A stretch of DNA of 64,000 nt from Anaerolineae bacterium (GTDB lineage: Bacteria > Chloroflexota > Anaerolineae > Aggregatilineales > J027). Positions 31,663 through 37,933 of the stretch are shown one piece after another (the first letter of the stretch is position 1; each line of letters starts with the position of its first letter). The notes under the pieces were generated by a model that was not told where the DNA came from, searched no databases, and saw nothing but the letters and a program-made list of their open reading frames with translations. The translations under genes and the position numbers were made by a program. The DNA lies in the NCBI GenBank assembly GCA_019913005.1, contig JAIOHL010000281.1, positions 1 to 64,000 on the forward strand. Reading direction: 5' to 3'.

Positions 31663-31758
31663 AGCGATTTTCAAGTAGATTGGCCTATGATGACACAGGG
31701 CTAAACCCGTCGTGCTGAATCTGGCTGGAAACGCGGGCCAACCAACATATGAATCGCT
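31663..31758. repeat. palindromic MITE-like element, copy B
   Basis: AGCGATTTTCA at the left (31663) and ATGAATCGCT at the right end are terminal inverted repeats, and AGATTGGCC faces GGGCCAACC further in. Core: CAGGGCTAAACCCGTCGTGCTGAATC. The 96-bp element runs into the open frame of the next gene, whose false upstream ATG (31749) comes from the right end of the repeat. Confidence 0.72.
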
Positions 31759-31817
31759 ATAAAAGCCTTCCCTATTTTTATTTACATCAAAAAATTATCG
31801 CTTTGAAAGGTTTTTCT

Positions 31818-32999
31818 ATGGCCGATATAGATCAACGTTTAAAAGAGCATCTGGCTTATGCGATTGCGAATGCCCCGGCGGTCAAATCCATTTTTGATGG
31901 CGCAAGATTAACCCTCAAGGATGTGCAGACTGTCGCCGATTTACAAAAACTGCCTGTCACCAGCAAAGATCATTTTACCGAAATGCAGCAGACCCATCCG
32001 CCGTTTGGAGGTTGGTTAGCCGTGCCTATCGAGCGGTTGCAGCGCATCCATCTTTCCCCCGGCCCAATCTTCGACCCCTTCGGCGTTGATGACACGGAAT
32101 TATTTGAGGATGCTGAACTGGCCTTATCACGGGCAGGGTTTGGTAAGGGTGATATTGTGGTCAACACCTTCCTGTACCACATGGTTCCGGCGGGGCTGCT
32201 GCTGGATGAAGGACTGCGGCGCACCGGGGCAGTCGTTGTTCCGATGGGGCCGGGGAACACCGAAACCCAAATCAAGGTCATCCTTGACTTAAAAATCGTT
32301 GGTTATGTCGGTACACCCAGCTTCCTCTCTATGATTTTGGACAAAATAGTGGAGATGGGGATTCCTAAAACTGCGATTCCGCTCAAGAAGGCCTTTTTCA
32401 GCGCCGAACCTTATCCGCCTTCACTGCGGGCCAAATTTGAGGGGGAGTATGGCCTGAAGACCAGCCAAGCCTATGCCACCGCTGATCTAGGGGTCGTGGC
32501 GTATGAGGTCTATGGAGAACAGGGATTCATTCTGCCCAATAACCTGATTGTGGAGTTGGTTGATCCGCAAACCGGACAATGGGTACAAGAAGGCACACCG
32601 GGCGAGGTGGTCGTTACCAGTTTTAGCAAGACCTATCCCCTGCTGCGATTTGGCACAGGCGACATGGCGGTGATGATTCCGGGTGCGGGGCGTTTATTCG
32701 GATTGGTCGGGCGGAGCGGGGAAGCGGTCAAGGTGCGCGGCATGTTTTTGCACCCCAATCAACTGCGTTTCGCAACGGCATCGTTCGCAGGTATCGCCGG
32801 GTTGCAGGCGGTAGTGACACGCGATGGGGATTATGACCAAGTGACCCTCAAAGTCGTCTCCCAAACTGGAGCCTCGGTGGATGGAGAAGCCCTCAAAGCC
32901 GCGATTAAGCAAGTGGCCCATTTGTCCGTCAATGCGGTGGAATTCGTAGATGCGATTGAAGGCCAGCGCTTAATTGTGGATGAGCGTAAGTGGGATTAA
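31818..32999 (+). CDS. PaaK-like AMP-dependent CoA ligase
   Basis: About 393 residues, adenylate-forming phenylacetate-CoA ligase family. Visible blocks: the LPVTSKDHFTE region, FFSAEPYPPSLRAKFEGEYG, YATADLGVVAYE, PGEVVVTSF, PLLRFGTGDMA and a C-terminal GRSGEAVKVRGMFLHPNQL. The glycine-rich P-loop of phenylacetate ligases is not clear in the N-terminal half. The upstream ATG at 31749 lies inside a repeat element; ATG 31818 with GAAAGG is preferred. The substrate is unknown. Confidence 0.85.
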   Translation: MADIDQRLKEHLAYAIANAPAVKSIFDGARLTLKDVQTVADLQKLPVTSKDHFTEMQQTHPPFGGWLAVPIERLQRIHLSPGPIFDPFGVDDTELFEDAELALSRAGFGKGDIVVNTFLYHMVPAGLLLDEGLRRTGAVVVPMGPGNTETQIKVILDLKIVGYVGTPSFLSMILDKIVEMGIPKTAIPLKKAFFSAEPYPPSLRAKFEGEYGLKTSQAYATADLGVVAYEVYGEQGFILPNNLIVELVDPQTGQWVQEGTPGEVVVTSFSKTYPLLRFGTGDMAVMIPGAGRLFGLVGRSGEAVKVRGMFLHPNQLRFATASFAGIAGLQAVVTRDGDYDQVTLKVVSQTGASVDGEALKAAIKQVAHLSVNAVEFVDAIEGQRLIVDERKWD

Positions 33000-33561: not shown

Positions 33562-35070
33562 TTATGACGAGAGCGTGGGTAGCTCTGGCAGTGGCAGACT
33601 AAAGTCGTTATTAAAGTACCATGCCTTCAATGACCAACCGACGACCTCGCCCTTGCGCGGATCATTATAACGAACCTTGATCCAGCGTTTGTCGTTGCTT
33701 TCACCCAATGCAATAACCTGCGTTCCCCAAGGAACATAGCTGAGGCGGGCGCAGCGGGTGCTGGGGCAAGAACGAATGCGTACATTCCCCACCGCCCGAA
33801 CTTGGACGCCACCCGGAATGGGGGTCGGGGTCGGCGTTGGGCCAGCCGTCGCTTGGGCTTGGCTTGTACCGCCATCGGTCACTGGAACGCTGTTAAAATC
33901 ACCCGTAAAGACGAGCCATTGAGACAGTGACCAGCCGATCTGACCGTTGACGTTCAATTGTGCCCATACTCCGTCAGCAGAACGCCCGACCACCGGATAG
34001 GTCGCACCTTTGGGTAGCAGGGCCAGCTTGGTCGCGGTGGTGGACGGACTTTGACGGAAGTTTAGGCCGACATTGGCATTGACCGTGCCTGTGATGCCTG
34101 TAACGCCGGGCGTGCCGCTGGTGGCTGTTCCCGAAACAGGAGTTCCTTGAGCATTCACCGCAAACCATGTGAATTGCAGATAGGCTTGGCGCTCAAAATC
34201 TGCCATTTCGATGGTCAGGGTGTGCTGTCCACCTGCGACTTGTATGGTGGCGTTGTAAAGGAATTCTTGCCAGTACGGTGTGGAGGCGATAATCGGTGTG
34301 CCATCCAATCGCACGGTGAAAATATCGTCTACCCTCCCTTCAAAGCGGAAGGTGCCACCAGCACCGAAATCAATGACTTTGGTGAAACGGGCTGACCACG
34401 CATCGGCGGGAACACCGATGGCGGGTGCAGTCACATCCCAGTTAATGTTGAGGGCATCGGTTGTTACCTGACTAAACGCGACTGCCGTACCCAACAACGA
34501 GGTGTTGTTAAAGTATTCGACATTCCAAACACTGGTGGTTGATGGGGTGGCGGTTGCGGTGCCAGTGGTGAACCAGCTTAAGGCGACGTGTGCGGCACCT
34601 GTGAGCGCTTGATACTCAAGAGTGATATTCACTGATTGGCCCGGTATGGTATTGGTATACGGACCATCATAGGTCGTTGGCGTATTCAATTCAGGGCCAA
34701 TTTGATTGATGATGGTTTGTCCTCCGACTGTCAGACGAACGCCATCTTCTACCGTTACTCTAAAGGTGTAAAGCCCTGCTGTGGGAAGAATTTGCGAACT
34801 TGTCCAGCGAATGGAGAAGTTATCTACTACGCCGGGTAGCTGTGCTGGTCCATTAGTGCCATAATTAAAGCCAATGGCGGTGTCACAAGTAGTGGTTGCA
34901 GTAGGCGATCCGATAAAATTGTTGTTGTTAAAAAATTGGCCTGCCCAACAGCCTGTCTGAGCTTCGGCTACCTGTGGTTTGCCGCCTGCATTGGGAAGTA
35001 GCGCGGCAAGACCGAGTACAATGATCCCACATAAGGCGAGAATGGATAAGCGCAAGACTTGTCGTTTCAT
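33562..35070 (-). CDS. secreted PA14/SH3-domain protein
   Basis: 502 residues. Signal peptide (MKRQVLRLSILALCGIIVLGLAAL, AEA cleavage region) then two PA14-like beta-sandwich modules: CWAGQFFNNNNFIGSP...GLYTFRVTVEDGVRL and WNVEYFNNTSLLG...FRFEGRVDDIFTVRLDG, each with the SW/TWF end. Two bacterial SH3-type modules follow (about 340-400 and 435-502): VGLNFRQSPSTTATKLALLP and VRIRSCPSTRCARLSYVP, linked by Thr/Pro. PA14 domains often bind carbohydrate; SH3b modules bind peptidoglycan. Likely a surface protein with no visible catalytic domain. Confidence 0.85.
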   Translation of the reverse strand: MKRQVLRLSILALCGIIVLGLAALLPNAGGKPQVAEAQTGCWAGQFFNNNNFIGSPTATTTCDTAIGFNYGTNGPAQLPGVVDNFSIRWTSSQILPTAGLYTFRVTVEDGVRLTVGGQTIINQIGPELNTPTTYDGPYTNTIPGQSVNITLEYQALTGAAHVALSWFTTGTATATPSTTSVWNVEYFNNTSLLGTAVAFSQVTTDALNINWDVTAPAIGVPADAWSARFTKVIDFGAGGTFRFEGRVDDIFTVRLDGTPIIASTPYWQEFLYNATIQVAGGQHTLTIEMADFERQAYLQFTWFAVNAQGTPVSGTATSGTPGVTGITGTVNANVGLNFRQSPSTTATKLALLPKGATYPVVGRSADGVWAQLNVNGQIGWSLSQWLVFTGDFNSVPVTDGGTSQAQATAGPTPTPTPIPGGVQVRAVGNVRIRSCPSTRCARLSYVPWGTQVIALGESNDKRWIKVRYNDPRKGEVVGWSLKAWYFNNDFSLPLPELPTLSS

Positions 35071-35426: not shown

Positions 35427-35795
35427 TTATTCTCCAAGAAAACCGCGCACCGTCTCAAGTAATTCGGTCATATTGATAGGTTTGGGTAAATATCCATCGC
35501 ACCCGGCTGCAAGAAATCGTTCCGCGTCACCACGCATGGCGTTGGCGGTCAAGGCAATGACTGGGATATGTTTGGTCTCTGTAGTTGCTTTGATAACGCC
35601 TGTTGCTTCGAGGCCGTCCATGCCGGGGATGTTGATGTCCATCAGAATTAGATCTGGCAATTCATGCTTGGTAATCTCGACCCCCGCCAAGCCATCTTCG
35701 GCCTCAAGCACCTCATAGCCTCGTGAAACAAGGATTTTGCGAACGAGGCGCTTATTTTGGGCGTTATCTTCCACATACAAAATCCGTTTAGCCAT
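35427..35795 (-). CDS. single-domain response regulator (CheY-like)
   Basis: 122 residues, one receiver domain with no output domain. Acidic residues VEDN, phospho-acceptor Asp in LILMDINIP, switch Thr in IALTANAM and Lys in LPKPINM are canonical. Its ATG overlaps the stop of the upstream enzyme-receiver fusion by one base (TAATG), so the two should be coexpressed and coupled. The final gene of the pair; a weak hairpin follows. Its kinase is not evident locally. Confidence 0.92.
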   Translation of the reverse strand: MAKRILYVEDNAQNKRLVRKILVSRGYEVLEAEDGLAGVEITKHELPDLILMDINIPGMDGLEATGVIKATTETKHIPVIALTANAMRGDAERFLAAGCDGYLPKPINMTELLETVRGFLGE

Positions 35796-37933
35796 TACTT
35801 TGCGTCCTTTTCGCTGATAATTTTATCCACGTGCGCGACTAACGCTTGTCGGTCTAATGATGGTTTTACCCAGACGCTGCAATTGTTTTCTCGGAAGATG
35901 GCCTTTTCGGCTTCAGATAGGTCTTTGGCGGTCAAAATGACAATAGGGATAGCCTTGAGACGCTCACTGGCTTTGAGTTCTCTTAACAGGGTAATCCCAT
36001 CAGTGTCGGGTAACATCATATCAAGGACAATGAGGCGTGGCAGACTCTCTTCGAGCATAGTCTTGGCATCTTTACCCGTATAGGCTTCCAAAACCTGATA
36101 GCGCCGAGTGGCCTCCAAAATGCGGCGGACTAAGCGTGCATCACGGCGATTATCGTCAATGACCAATACTTTGGTTTCGGCAACGGCCTCCAACGCATCC
36201 ACGACGCTGCTGGCAACCTCACCAACTGTCGTTTTGATAGGCTGGTCGGGCGATTTTGAATTACTACCCAAGCGCTCTACTACGTGGTCAACCAACTCAC
36301 GAGTGTTAAAGCTGCCTTTTTGCCACAACGAATCTACTTGACCTTCAAGGACGGCACGATCGCGCGGGGTCAAGGTTTTTGCCGAGACGACGACCACCGG
36401 AATATCGCGGGTATCGGGATCGGCTTTCAGGCTTTCAAGGAGGGTAAACCCATCCATTTCGGGCATGGTCAGGTCACTGACGACCAAATCGGGTTTGCGC
36501 TGGCGCACGAGATCAAGGCCATCCAGCGGATTGTTGGCCTCAAAGACGCGGTAATTTTTATGATTTTGCAGCAGGCGGCGGATGAGACGGCTGTCTTGTG
36601 GATTATCGTCAATAATCACGACTGTGGTGACTTGTTCATCTAATTTGGCAAGGGCCGCCCCCAGACCTTCCTCAATCTTATTGGTGGCCGCCATTTCGCC
36701 TTCGGGATGCCCAAGTTGGAGATCGAGCACATACTCGTCTTCCAAAACGTGTTTTTCAGCCGGGAAGGTGTGACCCGAACAATTGACGACGATAAATTCC
36801 TCTGGTTTTAGCAGGCCTTCAGCTACCAACTGCTCTAACCCAGCAAAGGCCACCGATGCGGCAGGTTCCATGCTGAGGCCTTCGCTGCGGGCCAGTCGGC
36901 GCATAGCACGAAAGGCTGCCCCATCATTGGCGGAAATCATCGTGCCGCCTGTTTCGAGACAGGCTTGACGCAAAATTTTATAGCCGCGTCCGGGGTCACC
37001 TGTGGCAAGGACGGAAATGCGGGTACGCGGGGTAACAGGTTCGGCTTCATCCTTCCCCAGTTTCCACGCCTCGACCATTGGCGCACAGCCCTCAACTTGA
37101 ATAATGCCAAGTTTGGGCATTTTATCAATCAAGCCCATGCGCATCAGTTCTTGAAAGCCCTTCCAAATTCCAATCGGGCCAATGCCGCCACTGACCGCTT
37201 GGATGTACCAATCAGGGGCACGCCATTTACCATCTGACGTGGGGGCATAACGCGCCAACTGCTCGGCGATTTCAAACGCGATGGTCTTAAGGCCTTCTTT
37301 GCCGGGAATGGCGGTGGTGCCGGGGTCAAGGTAGAGATTACGACGTTCGGCAAAATCTTGGGCGACCTTCTTGGCTTGGTCATACGTCCCAGCGATTTTG
37401 ACCACCTCTGCCCCATAGAGGCCGAGTTCACGCAGTTTTTCGTTGGGTACCATGCTGGTGAGGAAAATCCATAGGCGGATGCCGGCTCTGGCACAATAGG
37501 CCGCATATGCCGCTGCTTTATTGCCTGTTGAGGCTAGGACACATTCGTTTTTATTGGCTTGCACCAACGCCGCCGCCCCAACCGCTGCCTGACGATCTTT
37601 GAAAGAACTAGTCGGGCCTTGCCGCTCATCTTTAATGAAAATATTGGGGAGCTTGAGTTCTTTTTCAAGGTTGATGGCGTGAATCAACGGCGTCCATCCC
37701 TCACCCATTGTGATAGGACGTTCGGGGCGGGCGACGGGCAACAATTCTTCGTAGCGCCAGAGGTCGCTTTCACGGTCACGCAAACCAGCCGACCAAATTT
37801 TCTTGGCCGTCTCGAAATCATAATCGGCTTCGATCCAAGCCGAGCCGCATTTTTCACATGTTTTGGCTAGGGGGTCAGGCGGCATTGCATGACCACAATC
37901 CCGGCATACCAATTGGGTCAGCAGAGATGGCAT
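35795..37933 (-). CDS. threonine-synthase-like PLP enzyme fused to two receiver domains
   Basis: 712 residues. An N-terminal zinc ribbon (CxxC at residues 10/13 and 26/29) precedes a fold-type II PLP enzyme of the threonine synthase family: GEGWTPL, PLP lysine K112 in SSFKDRQA, LASTGNKAAAYAAY, the glycine-rich SGGIGPIGIWKGF and GDPGRGYKI. After residue ~430 come two receiver domains, REC1 (~437-555; IDDNPQDS, D487, switch S517) and REC2 (~588-706; IDDNRRDA, D638, T668, K690). All phosphorylation residues are present. Threonine synthase makes threonine from O-phosphohomoserine; whether this paralogue keeps that activity is not shown. Fusion and reading frame are unbroken. Confidence 0.88.
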   Translation of the reverse strand: MPSLLTQLVCRDCGHAMPPDPLAKTCEKCGSAWIEADYDFETAKKIWSAGLRDRESDLWRYEELLPVARPERPITMGEGWTPLIHAINLEKELKLPNIFIKDERQGPTSSFKDRQAAVGAAALVQANKNECVLASTGNKAAAYAAYCARAGIRLWIFLTSMVPNEKLRELGLYGAEVVKIAGTYDQAKKVAQDFAERRNLYLDPGTTAIPGKEGLKTIAFEIAEQLARYAPTSDGKWRAPDWYIQAVSGGIGPIGIWKGFQELMRMGLIDKMPKLGIIQVEGCAPMVEAWKLGKDEAEPVTPRTRISVLATGDPGRGYKILRQACLETGGTMISANDGAAFRAMRRLARSEGLSMEPAASVAFAGLEQLVAEGLLKPEEFIVVNCSGHTFPAEKHVLEDEYVLDLQLGHPEGEMAATNKIEEGLGAALAKLDEQVTTVVIIDDNPQDSRLIRRLLQNHKNYRVFEANNPLDGLDLVRQRKPDLVVSDLTMPEMDGFTLLESLKADPDTRDIPVVVVSAKTLTPRDRAVLEGQVDSLWQKGSFNTRELVDHVVERLGSNSKSPDQPIKTTVGEVASSVVDALEAVAETKVLVIDDNRRDARLVRRILEATRRYQVLEAYTGKDAKTMLEESLPRLIVLDMMLPDTDGITLLRELKASERLKAIPIVILTAKDLSEAEKAIFRENNCSVWVKPSLDRQALVAHVDKIISEKDAK

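Follow-up and report, generated by a model that had tools for sequence, protein, structure and literature searches.

Two-component phosphorylation rarely acts directly on a metabolic enzyme, transcriptional output being far more usual. In systems of the CqsA/LqsA type, a PLP-dependent autoinducer synthase is encoded beside its hybrid kinase, CqsA being a fold type I enzyme without a receiver. Response regulators with enzymatic outputs have been described, such as receiver domains (REC) joined to a BcsA-like glycosyltransferase or to KaiC, and archaeal receiver-enzyme fusions show narrow distributions (PMC5847659). The locus analysed here lies in a window of 64,000 nucleotides of an Anaerolineae genome and has in common with these regulators the covalent attachment of receivers to an enzyme, whose activity would come under environmental control. 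In contrast to them, its output domain is a fold type II PLP enzyme (PALP) positioned N-terminal to the receivers, and the family spans two Chloroflexota classes, unlike the narrowly distributed archaeal fusions. As in the CqsA/LqsA systems, most members of the family pair the gene of a PLP enzyme with that of a histidine kinase, which may together produce and sense a small molecule; here, however, the receivers sit on the enzyme itself. With threonine synthase (ThrC; TIGR00260; PDB 2zsj and 1uim) the fusions share the fold, the PLP lysine and the STGN loop, and their zinc ribbon is shared with long forms related to ThrC; they differ in the replaced phosphate-pocket positions, the added receivers, the kinase operon and the presence of a separate canonical ThrC. 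Among NCBIfam models, the PRK08197 threonine-synthase-like family (NF006050) fits the zinc ribbon plus PALP region best, and true members of it adjoin some fusions; the fusions, however, form a separate clade and score below its 303-bit cut-off (270.2 bits for the window protein and 299.7 for its own-genome paralogue). The sequence-only reading knew of no described function for this architecture, and our search likewise found no account of a receiver joined to any PLP enzyme, threonine synthase or PALP in a literature in which subscription journals were thinly covered. Within that literature, which is weak evidence, a PLP enzyme as response-regulator output appears to be undescribed.

The fusion gene (35,795–37,933, minus strand) is a single open reading frame of 712 codons without interruption, encoding a zinc ribbon, a PALP domain and two receivers. 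The N-terminal zinc ribbon (37,847–37,906, minus strand) carries Cys10, Cys13, Cys26 and Cys29, and is followed by the PALP domain (residues 74–387; 36,773–37,714, minus strand; PF00291, E = 5.5e-63), in which the Lys112 codon (37,598–37,600, minus strand) specifies the PLP lysine equivalent to Lys61 of Thermus ThrC. Two Response_reg stretches were detected by Pfam (E = 9.4e-38). REC1 (residues 438–550; 36,284–36,622, minus strand) has its phospho-acceptor at D487 (36,473–36,475), with D442/D443, S517 and K539 intact, and REC2 (residues 587–702; 35,828–36,175, minus strand) has its own at D638 (36,020–36,022), with D593, T668 and K690 intact. The acceptor Asp and the Lys are present in all 114 fused receivers compared, including 29 of 29 second receivers. 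A lone CheY-like receiver of 122 residues with D53 follows (35,427–35,795, minus strand; Response_reg, E = 4.6e-28), its ATG overlapping the fusion's TAA (TAATG). The sequence-only reading had described the zinc ribbon and the other domains, Lys112, D487, D638 and the stop-start overlap, and all of them were found in place.

The same reading had named an assembly error as something that would refute it, noting that the frame is uninterrupted here. Against such an error, three further assemblies from the window's genus contain the fusion at full length and 99% identity, and its dN/dS within the genus is 0.013–0.031, the enzyme and the receivers both being conserved. Relative to L062, the farthest of the genus members compared, the CheY gene shows 8 non-synonymous and 50 synonymous changes. 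The next gene after it (33,562–35,070, minus strand) is separated by 350 bases and encodes a secreted PA14 plus SH3 protein of 502 residues, whose place after CheY is the same throughout the genus and also in L059 and L060, two related loci. Farther along lies a gene for an AMP-binding, phenylacetate-CoA-ligase-like protein (31,749–32,999, plus strand), with a partial Pfam match covering residues 186–290 only.

Lys112, the STGN loop and the four zinc-ribbon cysteines are kept in all 85 fusions compared, together with a family signature of KDER, FKDRQ, SGGxG and GH motifs. In the window protein, P, G, G and G occupy the positions of Thermus ThrC N154, S155, R160 and N188, which we take to be the ligands of the substrate phosphate; every fusion has them replaced, Gly at 155 and 188 being universal. 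The same genome encodes ThrB and a canonical ThrC, which scores 263 bits on TIGR00260 (cut-off 167.1) and keeps all four phosphate positions, while the window protein scores 143.9 bits, below the cut-off. The genome's one-receiver paralogue reaches 185 bits, so that family scores alone leave threonine synthase activity possible. The window protein also falls short of the cysteate synthase model (TIGR03844; 111.8 bits against a cut-off of 324.9). In the AlphaFold model (mean pLDDT 85, pTM 0.60) the domains are well formed, and a structure search with its PALP domain returned threonine synthases as the best matches (TM-score to target about 0.87) along with broader fold type II enzymes, yielding no clue to the substrate. 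The model shows disordered linkers at 389–434 and 558–584 and no defined receiver-enzyme contact, so the mode of receiver action on the enzyme is not visible there. As the PLP residues are kept and the presumed ThrC phosphate pocket is replaced, the fusion is probably an active enzyme with a specificity other than that of ThrC; a dead enzyme is unlikely given the PLP lysine and STGN loop in 85 of 85. The earlier reading had named a second, normal threonine synthase combined with loss of catalytic residues as what would count against it; the canonical ThrC is present, but the catalytic lysine is kept. Separately, another PALP, of PRK08197 type, about 400 residues long and without a receiver, was observed just downstream of some one-receiver fusions (L138, L139, L153, L084 and also L145; 577 bits in L139).

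Among about 298 genomes of the class sampled, 137 matched at E ≤ 1e-60. The fusion family accounts for 99 of these genomes, counted as matches stronger than about 1e-90 and including strong partial matches at contig ends, and the remaining matches are plain PALP enzymes. Two forms were identified, PALP-REC (about 555 residues) and PALP-REC-REC (about 710 residues), and the window genome has both, on contigs C198 and C21. In a tree of the PALP domain, the 85 distinct fusions form one clade (SH-aLRT 100) separate from the receiver-less PALPs of the class. The two-receiver form is nested inside it as a subclade, which makes a single gain of the second receiver probable. In high-GC relatives (L047, L041 and similar), long antisense open reading frames overlap the fusion genes and were treated as non-coding. 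Outside the class, the one-receiver form was found in a group of genomes of 6.0–6.8 Mb in a second Chloroflexota class. These include a cultured carrier, a genome putatively assigned to Herpetosiphon aurantiacus DSM 785 (114-95T) with a chromosome of 6,346,587 bp, in which the kinase, PALP-REC and CheY genes are consecutive (L194) and a GNAT gene lies upstream of the kinase. No close relative was detected in samples of three further phyla (those of the Alkalimonas, Acidobacteria-labelled and Spirosoma loci), which were samples without a positive control.

After open reading frames had been called by a simple method and annotated with profiles, gene order was read around 85 non-redundant fusion loci, 83 of them having readable upstream sequence, and 13 readable loci of receiver-less ThrC-like PALPs served as controls. 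The next upstream gene on the same strand encodes a histidine kinase in 60 of the 83 fusion loci and in none of the 13 controls; in the other 23 fusion loci no kinase lies directly upstream. The commonest spacing between kinase and fusion is a 4-base overlap (7 loci). The kinases are large, with dCache-HAMP-GAF-HisKA-HATPase architecture in many two-receiver loci; in many one-receiver loci they are multi-GAF hybrids bearing one or two receivers of their own. Farther upstream, periplasmic binding proteins of several families (NMT1/THI5, ABC_sub_bind, Peripla_BP_4) or a ParA-type ATPase are encoded; that the binding-protein families vary while the fusion stays constant is the pattern expected of an output. 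Downstream, most two-receiver loci (22 of 29) continue with a gene for a lone receiver, and a REC-histidine kinase is found in 19 of 53 one-receiver loci. With intact receivers, an enzyme bearing catalytic residues in the same chain and, in relatives, a linked kinase, the fusion fits a response regulator with an enzymatic output.

Two further gene arrangements recur in one-receiver loci. In one group, comprising L046, L050, L051, L055, L142, L148, L149, L156, L159, L161 and L081, the kinase gene is directly preceded by one for a ParA/AAA_31-type ATPase, which is not a usual companion of two-component operons. Additionally, a conserved opposite-strand pair encoding a REC protein and a REC-HATPase protein is recurrent beyond EamA in the one-receiver EamA group (L046, L051, L055, L140, L142, L148, L149, L156, L161 and L164).

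The earlier statement that no kinase is adjacent is true in the window but false for the family. In the window's genus and in L059 and L060, the fusion and CheY genes form a pair without a kinase, while in L041, whose fusion is 62% identical and has the same order, a kinase lies upstream. The best match of the L041 kinase in the window genome is a 2644-residue kinase on contig C48 (E = 9e-255; best elsewhere, 3e-97). Searched in return, the C48 kinase found as its best match the kinase directly upstream of a two-receiver fusion in four genomes (G232, G279, G288 and G278) and the one upstream of a one-receiver fusion in G231; in G166, G239 and G270 the search gave no link to a fusion-adjacent kinase. 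The genes preceding the C48 kinase, for a Peripla_BP_4 binding protein and for a HAMP-GAF protein, resemble in type those upstream in L041. It is thus likely an orthologue of the operonic kinases, and the simplest reading would be that the operon was split in the window's lineage, leaving the kinase elsewhere, from where it may still phosphorylate the window fusion. A kinase-less orphan as a property of the system was rejected, given this likely orthologue.

Receiver-less relatives were found in 4 of 194 genomes of the phylum of the Microcoleus locus (Cyanobacteria), two of them on chromosome-sized contigs. These enzymes are 45–52% identical to the PALP half and have the same pocket signature, and neither a receiver nor a kinase was seen in the neighbourhoods read. 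They branch basal to or beside the fusion clade, the tree leaving the exact order unsettled. The occurrence of the same enzyme type without receivers favours an enzyme to which a switch was added over a sensor part of the receiver.

Several candidate pathway partners were also observed, each in part of the loci and none universal. In 13 Anaerolineae loci, with few exceptions of the two-receiver form, the fusion is closely followed by a GNAT gene of about 295 codons, and the fusion is present in 43 of the 48 class genomes with a strong GNAT match (Fisher p = 9e-19, genomes being counted regardless of phylogeny). Against the PDB, the GNAT sequence matched generic acetyltransferases only. An EamA transporter is encoded downstream in 19 of 53 one-receiver loci (about 20 loci overall), and a Methyltransf_19 S-adenosyl methyltransferase near one-receiver fusions in five loci (L141, L151, L166, L169 and L172). 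These neighbours suggest modification and export of a product. In L172, three Methyltransf_19 genes stand in tandem.

We consider it somewhat better than an even chance that the fusion is an enzymatic response regulator, in which phosphorylation by a kinase gates the synthesis of an amino-acid-derived product by the PLP enzyme. Signals arriving through periplasmic binding proteins and through Cache and GAF domains would lead a sensor kinase to phosphorylate one or both receivers, and this would turn the activity of the threonine-synthase-fold enzyme up or down, thereby gating the synthesis of a small molecule; in many lineages, N-acylation by the GNAT protein, methylation or export through EamA may follow. 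Also taking part in this relay would be the lone CheY or, in the lineages that have it instead, the REC-histidine kinase. For the window's genus, this reading has the fusion and CheY pair separated from a kinase whose likely orthologue is still on C48. The earlier proposal that phosphorylation controls an amino-acid step is thereby kept in part: control of a PLP-enzyme step fits best with the upstream kinase in relatives, the varying sensors beside a constant fusion and the receiver-less cyanobacterial enzymes, but the step is probably not threonine synthesis. A more elaborate circuit, in which the acylated or methylated product is exported and re-sensed by the binding proteins and kinases of the same operon, seems to us rather improbable.

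Other explanations divide mainly over what the PALP domain does. It could be a metabolite sensor of the kind seen in GabR, whose aminotransferase-like domain captures an amino acid through PLP; the bound amino acid would set the phosphorylation or partner binding of the receivers and CheY, and catalysis would be incidental. The operons offer no other obvious effector, the genes that follow encode CheY or a REC-histidine kinase, and PLP- and carboxylate-binding residues are retained, all of which would suit a sensor. We nevertheless judge it unlikely, since dedicated sensors (binding proteins, dCache, GAF) are already present in the operons, the enzyme type occurs in cyanobacteria without receivers, and the GNAT, methyltransferase and EamA neighbours indicate a product. 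Distinctly doubtful is a second, phosphorylation-controlled threonine synthase adjusting threonine supply: against the nearest fold matches, the paralogue that passes the thrC cut-off and the fact that the EamA family includes RhtA, a threonine/homoserine exporter, stand the canonical ThrC and ThrB of the same genome, the four pocket positions, which that ThrC keeps and every fusion has replaced, and the sub-threshold score of the window protein. A simple threonine synthase is therefore disfavoured, even with a one-receiver member above the cut-off.

Were the PALP domain only a dimerising scaffold, the protein would be a phosphate sink or a relay node between kinase and CheY, and several receivers per operon are indeed typical of relays. 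Such a role would need neither the invariant PLP lysine and pocket nor the very low dN/dS in the enzyme half, making it very improbable. An assembly or annotation artefact might be suspected in a genome of 365 contigs, yet the same architecture recurs in independent assemblies, in many families, on large single-contig chromosomes and in a cultured type strain, and purifying selection extends over both halves. A chance or artefactual fusion was rejected on the conservation across assemblies and the dN/dS, and its probability is negligible.

Returning to the enzymatic response regulator, the fusion to one or two receivers and the usual neighbouring sensor-kinase gene make it probable that the Chloroflexota carriers tune one small-molecule-making step directly by outside signals. 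If so, many unassigned multi-GAF kinase systems of Chloroflexota would gain an output. Caution is also warranted in annotating PALP-receiver fusions as threonine synthase. Should the more elaborate circuit hold, Chloroflexota would have a signalling or communication system whose synthase doubles as its response regulator. The family is widespread and strongly conserved, and with a cultured strain, H. aurantiacus DSM 785, among its carriers, both its product and its switching are directly testable.
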